From NCBI GenBank assembly GCA_018394295.1, contig CP074573.1:1302001-1366000 (forward strand): a stretch of 64,000 nt of DNA, given 5' to 3'. Under the pieces are notes generated by a model. It had not been told where the DNA came from, made no database searches, and worked only from the letters and a program-made list of their open reading frames with translations. The position numbers and the translations under genes were made by a program. Shown one piece after another: positions 57,233-60,828 of the stretch (positions are counted from its first letter, which is position 1; each line of letters begins with the position of its first letter). This DNA comes from Mycoplasmatota bacterium (GTDB lineage: Bacteria > Bacillota_I > Bacilli_A > Haloplasmatales > Haloplasmataceae).

Positions 57233-58440
57233 TTATCGTGTTATTTGATCTAATAATGCTAGATTTTCTTTTGCGATTTGATCAATATCTAAATTATCAT
57301 TTTTAATGGTGATACCAAGTGCAGCTTTATAATGGCTCTCATTATAATTAAATTTCTTGTTGGATATATTATGTATTATGATTAAATCAGTGTTATAATA
57401 GATATAGAGTTTATCATCAATGGGTATCAATTTAACTCTTTTGTTTATAAACTTACTGGGTACAGAATATCCATTTCCTTTATAATTTACAAGCAGTGTT
57501 TGCGGCACTGATTGTATATCTACGTTTTCTACGTAGGATTCTAACAGAATTTTGTTAGGTAAAGGATTTAGATATTCTTTTTCTTTTTCAAATAAGACAC
57601 TCGGTGGTATATTGGTGGTTTGATTATTCTCTAGATTGACCTTGTTGTTTATCTTGTTCAATATATTGATCAGTTCCTCTTCATCTTCAAATTCACCATC
57701 ATAAGGACGTAACCAAGCCAAGAATCGGTTAGCGGACTCATCTTTACCTTTTGTTTCTGGAGTCCTTGCCTTACATAATCTTATCGAAATTCCAAAATCC
57801 CGTTCAAATTGTTTTATTTTAGAATGTTTCTTTTTAGTTCCATTTGTGATGCTAACGACAGCTGACATATTATCCGTTAAAATATGTTTAGGGATACCCC
57901 TAGATGATTTAATGTATCGATTACACAACGGATGAAGTCTTCTGTCGTTTTTGTTTTTGAATAAACGAATTTATGATACCTTGAGAATCCTAGAGTAGAA
58001 GTTAATACATTAAACTCAAATACTTCTCCGTACTTACTTATTAGTTTCATACTTTCTTTCCAATCTACTTGTAGTTGGTCTCCTGGCCTGGTTTCATATC
58101 TAACATGTGGAGTGGTGCTTTTAGGTATGGTAATATGATTATTTTGAGTATAGTGTCTAAAGGTTGAATATGCCGGTATATTTTCATATTTATCTCTTAA
58201 ATATTCATGAACTGCTTTCTTTGTTACGCCAGATTTATTCATCAAATGTGATATTTCTTCTTTATATTGATCAAATCCACTTTCGCGTTTTCTTGTAATC
58301 AATTTCTTTCCTCCATCTTCATAATATTTTTTAATAGTATGTCGGTCTAATCCATAGATTCTTGCTAATTCACTATAATTTGGTTTCATATCATACGTTC
58401 TCAATATATCTAACATTCCTAGTACATTTATTTCAGTCAC
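57233..58440 (-). pseudogene. istA: IS21 transposase with a frameshift
   Basis: N-terminal piece 57877-58440: HTH (ARIYGLDRHTIKKYY) and first Asp (QVDWKESMKL). C-terminal piece 57233-57928: second Asp (ILTDNMSAVV) and Glu (ETKGKDESANRF). The pieces overlap at NHLG/GIPKHIL, where a G run has four bases (57897-57900) and five would restore the frame. A one-base loss, polymerase slippage or a sequence error explains it. Confidence 0.9.
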
Positions 58441-58568
58441 TTTTTTTACCTCGCTTCAGTTCAACTGAAACTATTATACTAAAAAAGATAACCTAATTGA
58501 TTATGTTATTACCAAAATTGGTAACTTTCTCATAATCAAGATTGGTTATCTTTATATTATCATTAATA

Positions 58569-58609
58569 CTGGTAACAAGAATCGAACTTGTAACCTCTTC
58601 CTTACCATG
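58569..58609 (-). other. tRNA-Thr 3'-end remnant, integrase attachment site
   Basis: On the minus strand the sequence reads TGGTAAGGAAG (3' side of a GGU anticodon arm), then T-arm ACAAG-TTCGATT-CTTGT and TACCAG. The last five bases CACCA lie at 56366-56370, beyond IS21 element 2. Joined, this is the 3' half of tRNA-Thr(GGT) with CCA. No 5' half is present, so it is not a working tRNA gene but a recombination site. Confidence 0.75.
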
Positions 58610-58860
58610 GAATAAACGCCATATAAACGGGTATAAAGCAATGTATAGCAATGTCTATTTATATATAGATAATTTGGCGATTTTAGTAGTTTTTTAATGT
58701 TTTTTTAAGTATGGTTAAATGATATTTTTTAAGCATTTTGTTGTAAAAATGTTGTAAAAAATTAAGGTGGTAAATGCAACTTATATATTAATGTGATATA
58801 GAAATGTACAATCAAATTTTTGTAATAATGCAAATATAGCAATATATTCAATAAAACGAC
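58610..58860. repeat. Gene-free DNA with short direct repeats beside the attachment site
   Basis: AGCAATGT occurs twice near 58637-58657 and TGTTGTAAAAA twice near 58740-58762. Direct repeats here could be integrase arm-binding sites. Otherwise nothing is recognised. Confidence 0.4.
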
Positions 58861-58862
58861 GA

Positions 58863-59027
58863 AAACCACTTTTTCAGTGGCTTTCTTTTTAGGTAAAACG
58901 AGTTTCAACTCTTTTTTAGATATCACTATCTAATTATAATATATTCAACAAATTAAATTAGATGACGAAAACCACCTAAAAAGGCGGTTTTCTTTTTTAG
59001 ATATTACGAGCATTAACGCTCTTTTTT
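58863..59027 (+). repeat. Two tandem copies of a double-hairpin unit
   Basis: Unit 1: hairpin AACCACT/AGTGGCTT (58863-58885) plus GAGTT/AACTC-T6 (58900-58917). Unit 2: GAAAACCxCCT/AGGxGGTTTTC-T6 (58967-58997) plus GAGC/GCTC-T6 (59008-59027). Each unit ends TCTTTTTTAGATATCA or a close variant. All four look like intrinsic terminators on the plus strand, though no plus-strand gene precedes them closely. Confidence 0.6.
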
Positions 59028-59090
59028 AGATATCAGTAATCTACTACGTACATGATATCATTCATATTATGTGCTGTCAAGAAGTTTTTA

Positions 59091-59735
59091 TTAGTTCCAT
59101 TCATTAATAATAGCTCTAAAGACTTCTCTCATCTTAGAAGATCTGACCCCACCCATTGGAGAATTTAAATCTACTCGATATATACTTATTGGAGTTATTC
59201 TAGTTACATTGACATATCTATCTCTTCTAGGCAAATTAAAAACCATATCTATAGTAATTTCAGATGGTCTAGGATTTGTTAAACTACCAGACGTTAAAGG
59301 TGCAACAATTAAAACTTCTCCTAAATTTTTTAAAATAATTGCTGGATGCTTACCACCAAACTCACAACCAACATTAAATCCAAACTCTGCCCAAATAACG
59401 TTGCCCCGTAAAAATACTAAATTATGCAATAAATCTAAAGAATCGGATATATCTATAGACTTTGAATTTCGTTTATAATCACCATCAATTAAATTATAAT
59501 ATTTATCAATTTTTATTTGAATTGATGGAGAATTTCTATTATAGGCAAATTCTGTTACTTTGTTTGGAAAAATTTTATCAGGGATAGATAAAGGTTTTTT
59601 TTCATCATGATATAGTTGCGAATGTTTTGCAATCCATTCCAAATATAAAATACTTCTTTTAACCTCATTTTGAGTATTTGATTTATCTACAATATTAATG
59701 ATAGACTTATTAGCGTTAAATTGCTTAGTATACAT
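59091..59735 (-). CDS. PemK/MazF-like toxin-family protein
   Basis: 214 residues. The C-terminal half carries the PemK/MazF signature: LRGNVIWAEFGFNVGCEFGG, KHPAIILKNLGEVLIVAPLT and later RYVNVTRITPI. The extra N-terminal half (about 1-105) is basic and of unknown role. GGGGG precedes the ATG. Family members are mRNA endonucleases checked by an antitoxin, but no antitoxin gene is adjacent, so the function is open. Confidence 0.8.
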   Translation of the reverse strand: MYTKQFNANKSIINIVDKSNTQNEVKRSILYLEWIAKHSQLYHDEKKPLSIPDKIFPNKVTEFAYNRNSPSIQIKIDKYYNLIDGDYKRNSKSIDISDSLDLLHNLVFLRGNVIWAEFGFNVGCEFGGKHPAIILKNLGEVLIVAPLTSGSLTNPRPSEITIDMVFNLPRRDRYVNVTRITPISIYRVDLNSPMGGVRSSKMREVFRAIINEWN

Positions 59736-60144
59736 ATAATTATCCCCCTCTATTATACAATAATTTACAATATCAAATTAAAATAAACAAGTTTTTATAT
59801 ACTTCTTTTTTCAAAAGAATTGTTTTCTATTTAATTGTTTTATTAGTTGGCGTATATCCAGTTTTTCATGAAGATAAAACATTTTTCAATAATTTGTTTC
59901 TTTCAATTATGAAATCCTTGTCTGTTAATGAAGGAAGAGTTTACATCTAGCGAAAAGCATACTTTTATCATTATAGGCATAACCGATATATAAGGGATAA
60001 TGCTCTTTCTATTCGATAAATGATTACCAAATCTTTATTTTGTTTTAAATAGTTATCCAGTATTCTAAACAAAGTACACACATTTTATTTCGCCCTATAA
60101 ATTTCAATTTTAATTAATATAAAGTGACTTTTTCAGTCTAAAAA
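59736..60144. other. Intergenic stretch, nothing recognised
   Basis: About 410 bp, AT-rich, with no frame, hairpin or repeat I can support. Confidence 0.4.
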
Positions 60145-60336
60145 TTATATTTCTTCAAGAACACTATTTTTTATTTCAATAGTTTTATACTCATAATCGA
60201 ATGAATAAATAGACGCGATTATCATCTGATGATTTGAAAATTCATTATAAATGATATTATACATGTCATCTATATGCTTTTTTTTAACCTCACGACCATT
60301 AGGAGAATCTAATAGTAAATAACTATGGAGGAGCAT
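60145..60336 (-). pseudogene. C-terminal scrap of an SMC-like ATPase
   Basis: 63 codons: LLLDSPNGREVKKKHIDDMY, then NHQMIIASIYSFDYEYKTIE. LLLDSP followed by a late IIIAS strand is typical of the D-loop and end of DNA-repair type ABC/SMC ATPases. The apparent ATG is on the complement of the integrase ribosome-binding site, so it is a chance start at a junction. Confidence 0.5.
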
Positions 60337-60337
60337 T

Positions 60338-60828
60338 ATGACAAAATATCAAATTAAAAAAAATATAGATGATACAAAAACATTTCAATACAGATACCGT
60401 AACATTAACGGTAGACAAAAAACCAAATCTTTCAGAGCAAAAAATACGACAAAAAATGCTGAAAAAGCTGCGCTTAAGGAACTTAAAGATTTTGCTAAGG
60501 AAATGGAAGCCAATAAGACACTTGGAATAGCTACAGATGAAAGTTCAACTAAATTTAGTGATTAAGCTGAATTAGTATTCAAAATTCATGACCGGGATGC
60601 ATCAGAACAAACAAAACAAAATCGACAATACTATCTTAGAGTAATCAATAAACATATCGGAAATAAAAAATTAAAAGACTTATCTGCTACTAAAATAGAA
60701 AGCTTTCTAGTAGAAATGTCAGAAGTTAAGTCCAATCAAGTTTTGAGTAAATATAAACAAATAATCAATATCGTTATGGACCATGCTTTTTCAAAAGATC
60801 TAATTTCTATTAAAACCGTGATATTTTA
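60338..60828 (+). pseudogene. Second tyrosine integrase, 3' truncated
   Basis: Good ribosome-binding site (GGAGGAG) and ATG. Arm domain (KTFQYRYRNINGRQKTKSF), then TAA at 60563-60565 where the homologue has TAT (SEYAD), then the core-binding domain (IGNKKLKDLSATKIESFL, YKQIINIVMDHAFSKDL). The catalytic domain is absent; the ISL3-like end follows at 60829. Confidence 0.85.

Follow-up and report, generated by a model that had tools for sequence, protein, structure and literature searches.

Why do four terminator-like hairpins lie side by side in two tandem units, where no gene needs four terminators? This question is raised by positions 58863-59027 of the window, by which we mean the whole 64,000-nt stretch of DNA analysed here (positions 1302001-1366000 of a 3.2-Mb contig from a Mycoplasmatota bacterium). 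A sequence-only reading of the array had offered three answers: small RNAs, a strong insulator of an attachment-site region, or the remnants of a repeat that multiplies. The first is supported by promoter, strand and relatives, with two changes: the RNA lies on the opposite strand, and it is tied to a toxin gene that the reading did not mention. Our analysis indicates that the array is probably a small RNA read from the minus strand, with its own promoter behind a MazF-like toxin gene, and that it probably acts as the RNA antitoxin of this toxin.

On the plus strand the array consists of four hairpins, each followed by a T-run, at 58861-58885, 58900-58911, 58967-58992 and 59008-59021. They form two tandem units with a spacing of 108 bp and an identity of 75% over 106 bp (79/106). 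The plus strand of the array folds at -41.0 kcal/mol with a z-score of -4.70, better than 200 of 200 dinucleotide shuffles; for the four single hairpins in turn, 0, 3, 1 and 2 of 200 shuffles each folded as well. The description of four hairpins with T-runs in two units was thus confirmed, and their folding is far from chance. The linker said to be shared by the units, CTTTTTTAGATATCA, is exact at 58911 and 59021 and has one mismatch at 58992, and the fourth linker is more degenerate. The statement that the large stem keeps pairing while its sequence changes held in part: two compensatory pairs are seen by eye inside the window (e.g. GAGT/ACTC to GAGC/GCTC), which is a modest number, and the large stems carry A.C mismatches on the plus strand. 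The four hairpins are real structures and probably not terminators.

Comparison of the two strands showed a difference in pairing. On the plus strand both large stems contain an A.C mismatch, at different places, and one small stem has such a mismatch at its tip; on the minus strand both large stems are continuous, with one G-U pair each. The large-stem energies are -14.2 and -16.6 kcal/mol on the minus strand vs -8.5 and -12.7 on the plus strand, and the full array reaches -50.3 kcal/mol on the minus strand against the plus-strand value given above. A third wobble pair at the tip of a small stem is possible on the minus strand and is absent from the minimum-energy fold, and the plus-strand fold has one G-U pair of its own in another stem. 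What appears as T-runs on the plus strand is, on the minus strand, a set of A-rich linkers, (G)ATATCTAAAAAAGA, that precede the stems. A strand preference drawn from two or three wobble pairs alone is weak evidence; the argument gains because these pairs agree with a minus-strand promoter that is directed into the array. This promoter (59052..59080, minus strand) reads TTGACA-17-TATCAT, scores 11/12, has a TG before the -10 element and begins 10 nt past the stop of the toxin gene. It is the best promoter-like site in 58000-60500 (59080-59052), a region in which such sites show no excess overall (19 found vs 18.5 expected from shuffles). A pattern scan called the last large stem (58861-58885) a terminator on both strands, and on the minus strand it is the sole stem so called. 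On the plus strand T-runs follow all four stems, of which the large ones are broken there, and these T-runs could also end plus-strand transcripts.

The 165 bases first reported are not the whole feature, which on the minus strand also includes the promoter and a possible third hairpin per unit (59043-59027 and 58933-58916). The array begins about 9 nt past the promoter. RNA copy 1 would span 58955..59046, with a start deduced from the promoter, and consists of hairpins joined by A-rich linkers. Its hairpin 0 (TAGAT..ATCTA, 59027..59043) was found by eye and is uncertain, as the single-sequence fold prefers another pairing and the alignment to the covariance model R1, described below, pairs other bases upstream. 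Hairpin 1 (GAGC..GCTC, 59008..59021), the fourth hairpin of the sequence-only reading, appears in both the fold and R1, and hairpin 2 (GAAAACCGCCT..AGGTGGTTTTC, 58967..58992) in the fold, where it is continuous only on the minus strand. Copy 2 follows in tandem at 58850..58938, as judged from its R1 match and the alignment of the copies; its putative 3′ end is a hairpin followed by GTCGTTTTATT. The fold contains its hairpin 0 (TTAGATA GTGA TATCTAA, 58916..58933), its hairpin 1 (GAGT TGAA ACTC, 58900..58911; the second hairpin in the earlier count) and its hairpin 2 (GAAAGCCACT..AGTGGTTTTC, 58861..58885), which fold and pattern scan together mark as the probable terminator of the RNA.

The gene in front of the promoter (59091..59735, minus strand) encodes a MazF/PemK-like toxin of 214 aa. 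A Pfam search at E up to 0.001 returned PF02452 as the sole family (E 1.7e-9), and a profile match to EndoA had an E of 7e-9. The protein carries an N-terminal extension of about 106 aa ahead of the MazF fold. In the predicted structure (mean pLDDT 89.2), modelled residues 108-214 superpose on MazF chains with a best Z of 15.5 and an rmsd of 1.6 over 103 residues. The EndoA arginine, which we take to be R25 and catalytic, aligns with a His that is invariant in an alignment (A8) of the window toxin with 32 of 109 scanned loci. ToxN has a fold of the Kid/MazF type. The matches listed in the structure comparison include no ToxN-type chain, which is no evidence because the re-scoring covered Foldseek's own list only. 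Around the start of the window toxin there is no frame of at least 40 aa ending from 80 nt before to 40 nt after it, and upstream of the gene zero promoters exceeded the cut of the scan.

Used as the sole query, the window toxin drew no relatives from either the genome or the viral collection. Matches occurred in 2 of 395 class genomes, namely its own and one with a 27% identical protein (L023) that has no promoter site behind it, and among 392 phylum genomes its own was the 1 match. A tblastn search of plasmids and phages matched five plasmid records as well as one phage genome with two accessions. With an alignment as query, the genome collection yielded 148 relatives; we kept 80 of these, which by their titles are mostly Clostridia. 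This query also gave 29 viral contigs; a second alignment query, built from L051 and L045, found none among viral contigs. The family analysed here comprises 80 genome loci, 29 viral contigs and 6 plasmid or phage records. Clustering at 70% identity places its 116 members, the window included, in 40 clusters, and 114 of the members are long enough for the promoter test; L136 and L042 are one phage, counted as two members of one cluster. In a Heyndrickxia oleronia plasmid (L041) and Geobacillus virus E3 (L042) a long gap lies 3′ of the toxin, and hairpins follow a promoter that is located at the stop or shortly behind it. The plasmid loci L044 and L045 likewise have a promoter and then hairpins behind the toxin, as does L043 with a weaker site (9/12). 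L045 and a Parageobacillus plasmid found through it (L051) have two tandem units like the window, by eye. Of 37 plasmid records that resembled L045 seven were fetched, and L051 alone was counted, after its RNA had been noticed. The other six (L046-L050 and L052), PemK/MazF loci fetched by the same likeness, were set aside from the family; they have 0/6 promoters at 10/12 and a plain terminator by eye. One viral contig (IMGVR_UViG_3300034520_000372; L140, 2300-2750) holds a decayed toxin that is close to the window toxin and has stops inside; a promoter site was not found behind its broken frame.

To describe the family as a whole, we counted promoters scoring at least 10/12 within -20..+90 of the toxin stop. 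Such a site occurs in 35/40 clusters and 76/114 members, vs 7/87 control frames (at least 150 aa, same loci; 22/287 over all loci) and 44/800 shuffled sequences. By source, it is found in 19/20 viral and 11/15 genome representatives, and without L051 the count is 34/39 clusters. The clusters below the cut are L054, L086, L092, L097 and L133. Among the 38/114 members below it, 20 keep TTGATT-17-TATCAT (9/12) at +21 to +30 and six are without any site. With toxin starts picked mechanically, a promoter of this strength lies downstream of the toxin in 34/39 clusters vs upstream of the start in 6/39, and the downstream one is the stronger in 33/39. No frame was detected upstream of the toxin in 24/39 clusters. 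The upstream frames of the other 15/39, compared without a family search, belong to no single common family, and six of them resemble phage repressors or parts of these by eye.

The region behind the promoter is also folded. The 150 nt from 40 nt past the stop have a median z of -3.66, with 31/40 clusters at or below -3, vs a median of -0.65 and 13/85 in controls (Mann-Whitney p 2.8e-12); the RNA region of L045 reaches a z of only -0.62. Exact direct repeats above chance were detected in 9/40 clusters vs 8/83 controls. This is a weak test, in which L045 and L051, with their two tandem units by eye, go unflagged. Because of this count of 9/40, we regard the repeat-flanked form as clear in the window, in the Clostridia group and in some further members, and as not clear in the majority of those from viral contigs. 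The longest exact direct repeat among the 40 cluster representatives, 20 nt in two copies 31 nt apart, lies 35-235 nt past the toxin stop (3289) in L159. The linker motifs of the toxin-RNA subfamilies are TATCTAAAAAAGA, TTGCTATGAAAG and GTGAAGGA.

The RNA of the Clostridia group, the best-covered one, is about 100 nt long and consists of hairpin 0, the motif, hairpin 1, CAGT, the motif again, hairpin 2, CAGT and a T-rich end. A triplet within the motif (GGA, AAA or TTT) largely co-varies in both repeats, by eye. We aligned 23 of the 31 group loci (alignment A6), leaving out three short loci (L099, L102 and L103), two with no promoter row (L107 and L118), two duplicates (L111 and L114) and one that is identical to L098 over the modelled part (L109); the start of L130 was shifted by hand to the visible promoter. 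In these 23 RNAs, 22 of them distinct, 98.9% of cells are paired and 11/24 pairs are altered on both sides. None of 500 shuffles reached the observed covariation, and six slid structures came nowhere near it. The RNAs vary by compensatory changes and by indels of one or two bases that ignore a reading frame. Covariance analysis, which had been proposed as a check on the hairpins, gave a positive result for this group.

A covariance model (R1) was built from the Clostridia group, with the window excluded, and run with filters off over 57500-60500. Its top match is 59064-58958 on the minus strand (26.3 bits, E 1.6e-4), which is copy 1, and its second match is 58937-58852 on the same strand (15.8 bits, E 0.021), which is copy 2; the best plus-strand match has 10.6 bits. 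Because the two best matches are the two window units, both on the minus strand, we consider the array to be the family RNA twice in tandem. R1 is not very specific: over 50 kb of the window, 29129-29037 comes first (29.2 bits), copy 1 second (E 0.0027) and copy 2 fifth (E 0.35). What makes the match persuasive is its location and the repetition of the motif, and not the score alone. With default filters R1 missed the window array, and found 5/49 family loci outside its own group (49 being part of such loci) and 0/6 control loci. All five matches (L042, L085, L087, L088 and L094) lie directly behind the toxin, and the last four loci have two tandem matches each. The site at 29129-29037 on the minus strand was considered as a further RNA copy and rejected, as it consists of two terminator-like stems with T-runs, without hairpin 1 and with no family toxin in front. 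It resembles a plain double terminator and yet outscores the window array.

The array RNA is probably the antidote of the toxin because most related toxins tested are likewise followed by a promoter and a folded RNA. An RNA antitoxin is the most likely reading given the strong promoter of the RNA, the weak one of the toxin, the absence of an upstream protein partner, the tandem units and a fold like that of type III toxins. What we computed in support of it comprises the strand preference, promoter, tandem copies, toxin fold, recurrence in most relatives, covariation in one group and the lack of a conserved upstream protein; from there we infer the transcription, excess, binding, inhibition and function of the array RNA. 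A non-coding RNA unit with two or three hairpins, present twice in tandem, would be transcribed from its own strong promoter and made in excess over the poorly promoted toxin. The RNA may bind the toxin via its hairpins and the repeated unpaired A-rich linkers, as ToxI binds ToxN. Upon loss of the element or shut-off of transcription, the short-lived RNA would decay and the toxin would be freed. The freed toxin would then cut cellular RNA, which could lead to maintenance of the element or to abortive infection.

Several other explanations were weighed against an RNA antitoxin. The RNA could be a true partner of the toxin without being its antitoxin, acting as a substrate or decoy, as a specificity or sensor RNA or as a regulator of the toxin mRNA, while inhibition comes from the N-terminal extension or an unlinked gene. 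Promoter, covariation and folding associations fit this equally well, and the N-terminal extension of these toxins, roughly residues 1-106 of the window toxin, could be autoinhibitory. However, a strong promoter on the RNA and a weak one on the toxin are the expectation for an antitoxin in excess, and a conserved protein partner upstream is absent, so that we regard this explanation as possible and rather doubtful. We consider it unlikely that the array is an ordinary duplicated cluster of intrinsic terminators between convergent units, the integrase on the left (plus strand) and the toxin on the right (minus strand). The T-runs behind all four plus-strand stems, the terminator call of the last large stem on both strands, the better R1 score of the double terminator at 29129-29037 and the plain terminators, without a 10/12 promoter, at six other PemK/MazF loci speak for it. 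Against it, the large stems are broken by A.C mismatches on the plus strand and continuous on the minus strand, the array is faced by the 11/12 promoter, and the integrase frames on the plus strand are interrupted by IS21-like genes (by eye) and end 2.6 kb off. Moreover, most relatives of the toxin retain promoter and folded RNA in differing neighbourhoods. Terminators or an insulator, as had been suggested, are therefore not the best reading of the array.

It appears very improbable that the hairpin region hides a short peptide gene or represents a type I system. A 54-aa frame on the minus strand does overlap the region (58926-58762), but it spans the second copy only and is without a ribosome site by eye, and the RNA of the best-covered group varies by compensatory changes and frame-ignoring indels. 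We give even less weight to the remnant of a multiplying repeat, for which the two tandem copies, 75% alike, could speak. It is contradicted by the single place that BLAST found for the array in its own genome, where the proposed search for more units gave no further copies, and by 99 other genomes, in which there were short DNA matches only and the lowest-E match covers 37 bases. The linker occurs elsewhere in the host genome, within one mismatch, as six scattered singles. The array DNA had zero matches among 50,697 phage and 72,556 plasmid records, and its exact motif pattern was found in 0 viral contigs.

The RNA antitoxin that we favour resembles the known type III systems (ToxIN, AbiQ-AntiQ, CptIN, TenpIN) in several respects. 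An RNase-like toxin lies beside a structured RNA, with tandem units in part of the family; the promoter layout suggests an excess of RNA; and the systems occur on plasmids, in phages and, here, in an integrated element. In ToxIN a single operon carries first the 36-nt repeats, then a terminator and then toxN, and the repeats are both cut and bound by ToxN (PMC5772629). Unlike this, the RNA of the window and of most relatives is encoded downstream of the toxin and has a promoter to itself, the toxin belongs to PF02452, and the units of about 90-100 nt have two or three hairpins as opposed to the 36-nt pseudoknot repeats of ToxIN. A repeated-unit RNA beside an RNase-type toxin is present in the window, with exact repeats across the family in the 9/40 clusters only, and an RNA upstream in one operon with a terminator between is absent. 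Because two defining features are lacking, we do not file the system as a type III member. In our best reading it would work like type III, with a MazF-type toxin, a reversed gene order and a separate promoter. With type II MazEF/PemIK systems (EndoA, Kid) it shares the PF02452 toxin domain and the MazF fold; it differs from them in having no adjacent gene for a protein antitoxin, in the N-terminal extension and in the His in place of the EndoA Arg.

Neither the window nor the RNA region of 25 family loci had a match to any Rfam family at its gathering score. At E up to 10, 331 window bases gave 18 matches, all under gathering scores, and at E up to 1 the RNA region of 13 loci was without a gathering-score match. 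The 'pemK' RNA of Rfam (RF02913) is alike in being a structured RNA near some PemK genes. It gave no gathering-score hit in the window, L041-L045 or 20 further loci (0/4 records), and was rejected as the array RNA, since 0/25 RF02913 loci have a family toxin just upstream; in 5/25 a short ordinary PemK gene lies about 140-340 nt downstream of the RNA. RF02913 occurs in 28/392 phylum genomes. Its name may mislead, because only 5/25 loci (L162-L186, 1.5 kb each side where the contig allows) hold a PemK-like stretch. Structured RNAs upstream of ToxN are reported in PMC8040213, and the parts of it consulted do not describe the downstream arrangement. A PemK/MazF toxin with a downstream RNA antitoxin is undescribed among the matches listed from open-access titles and abstract starts, a scope that includes parts of PMC8040213, PMC11507696, PMC10054693 and PMC5772629, and it may be described elsewhere.

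Beyond this locus, we see an even chance that the family represents a widespread, unnamed class of RNA antitoxins in Bacillota, phages and plasmids. In such a class, N-extended MazF/PemK RNases without a protein antitoxin would be held in check by a downstream hairpin RNA with its own promoter, which would link type II and type III. In the annotation of six plasmid and phage stretches that carry such a toxin, it is labelled as type II PemK/MazF or as a PemK-superfamily regulator, and the RNA partner is unmarked (the plasmid gene table used has no RNA genes). If the RNA partner is true, many toxins of Clostridia, bacilli, plasmids and phages that seem to have no partner would turn out to be complete systems. 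With a MazF-type toxin under the control of an RNA, the evolutionary relation of type II to type III would also become directly testable.

Mobile elements are a frequent home of toxin-antitoxin pairs, and the array sits, as had been noted, in an attachment-site region, immediately within a stack of elements at a tRNA-Thr(GGT) gene. A 21-base core, AACCTCTTCCTTACCATGGAA, is present in the window at 58592, again 11.2 kb further and a third time, at about 28.5 kb, within the intact tRNA, which makes three copies in 28.5 kb. The corresponding places are 58569-58613 in the window and 1371835 (L039) and 1389069-1389143 (L040) on the contig. On the left of the window copy (58569-58613) a different tRNA-like 3′ half is kept. 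On the other side of the array, gene debris lies by the toxin. A 75-aa frame at 60338-60565 (plus strand), without a Pfam hit, resembles an integrase N-terminus by eye, and a 63-aa frame at 60145-60336 (minus strand) matches the C-terminal end only of PADLOC PDC-M46B (E 2.4e-17) and LmuB. An IS21-like element (frames judged by eye) ends at 58568. Its end, 58440-58568, has five exact copies in the genome, one in the window and the others in four other places, and one copy abuts the tRNA-like fragment.
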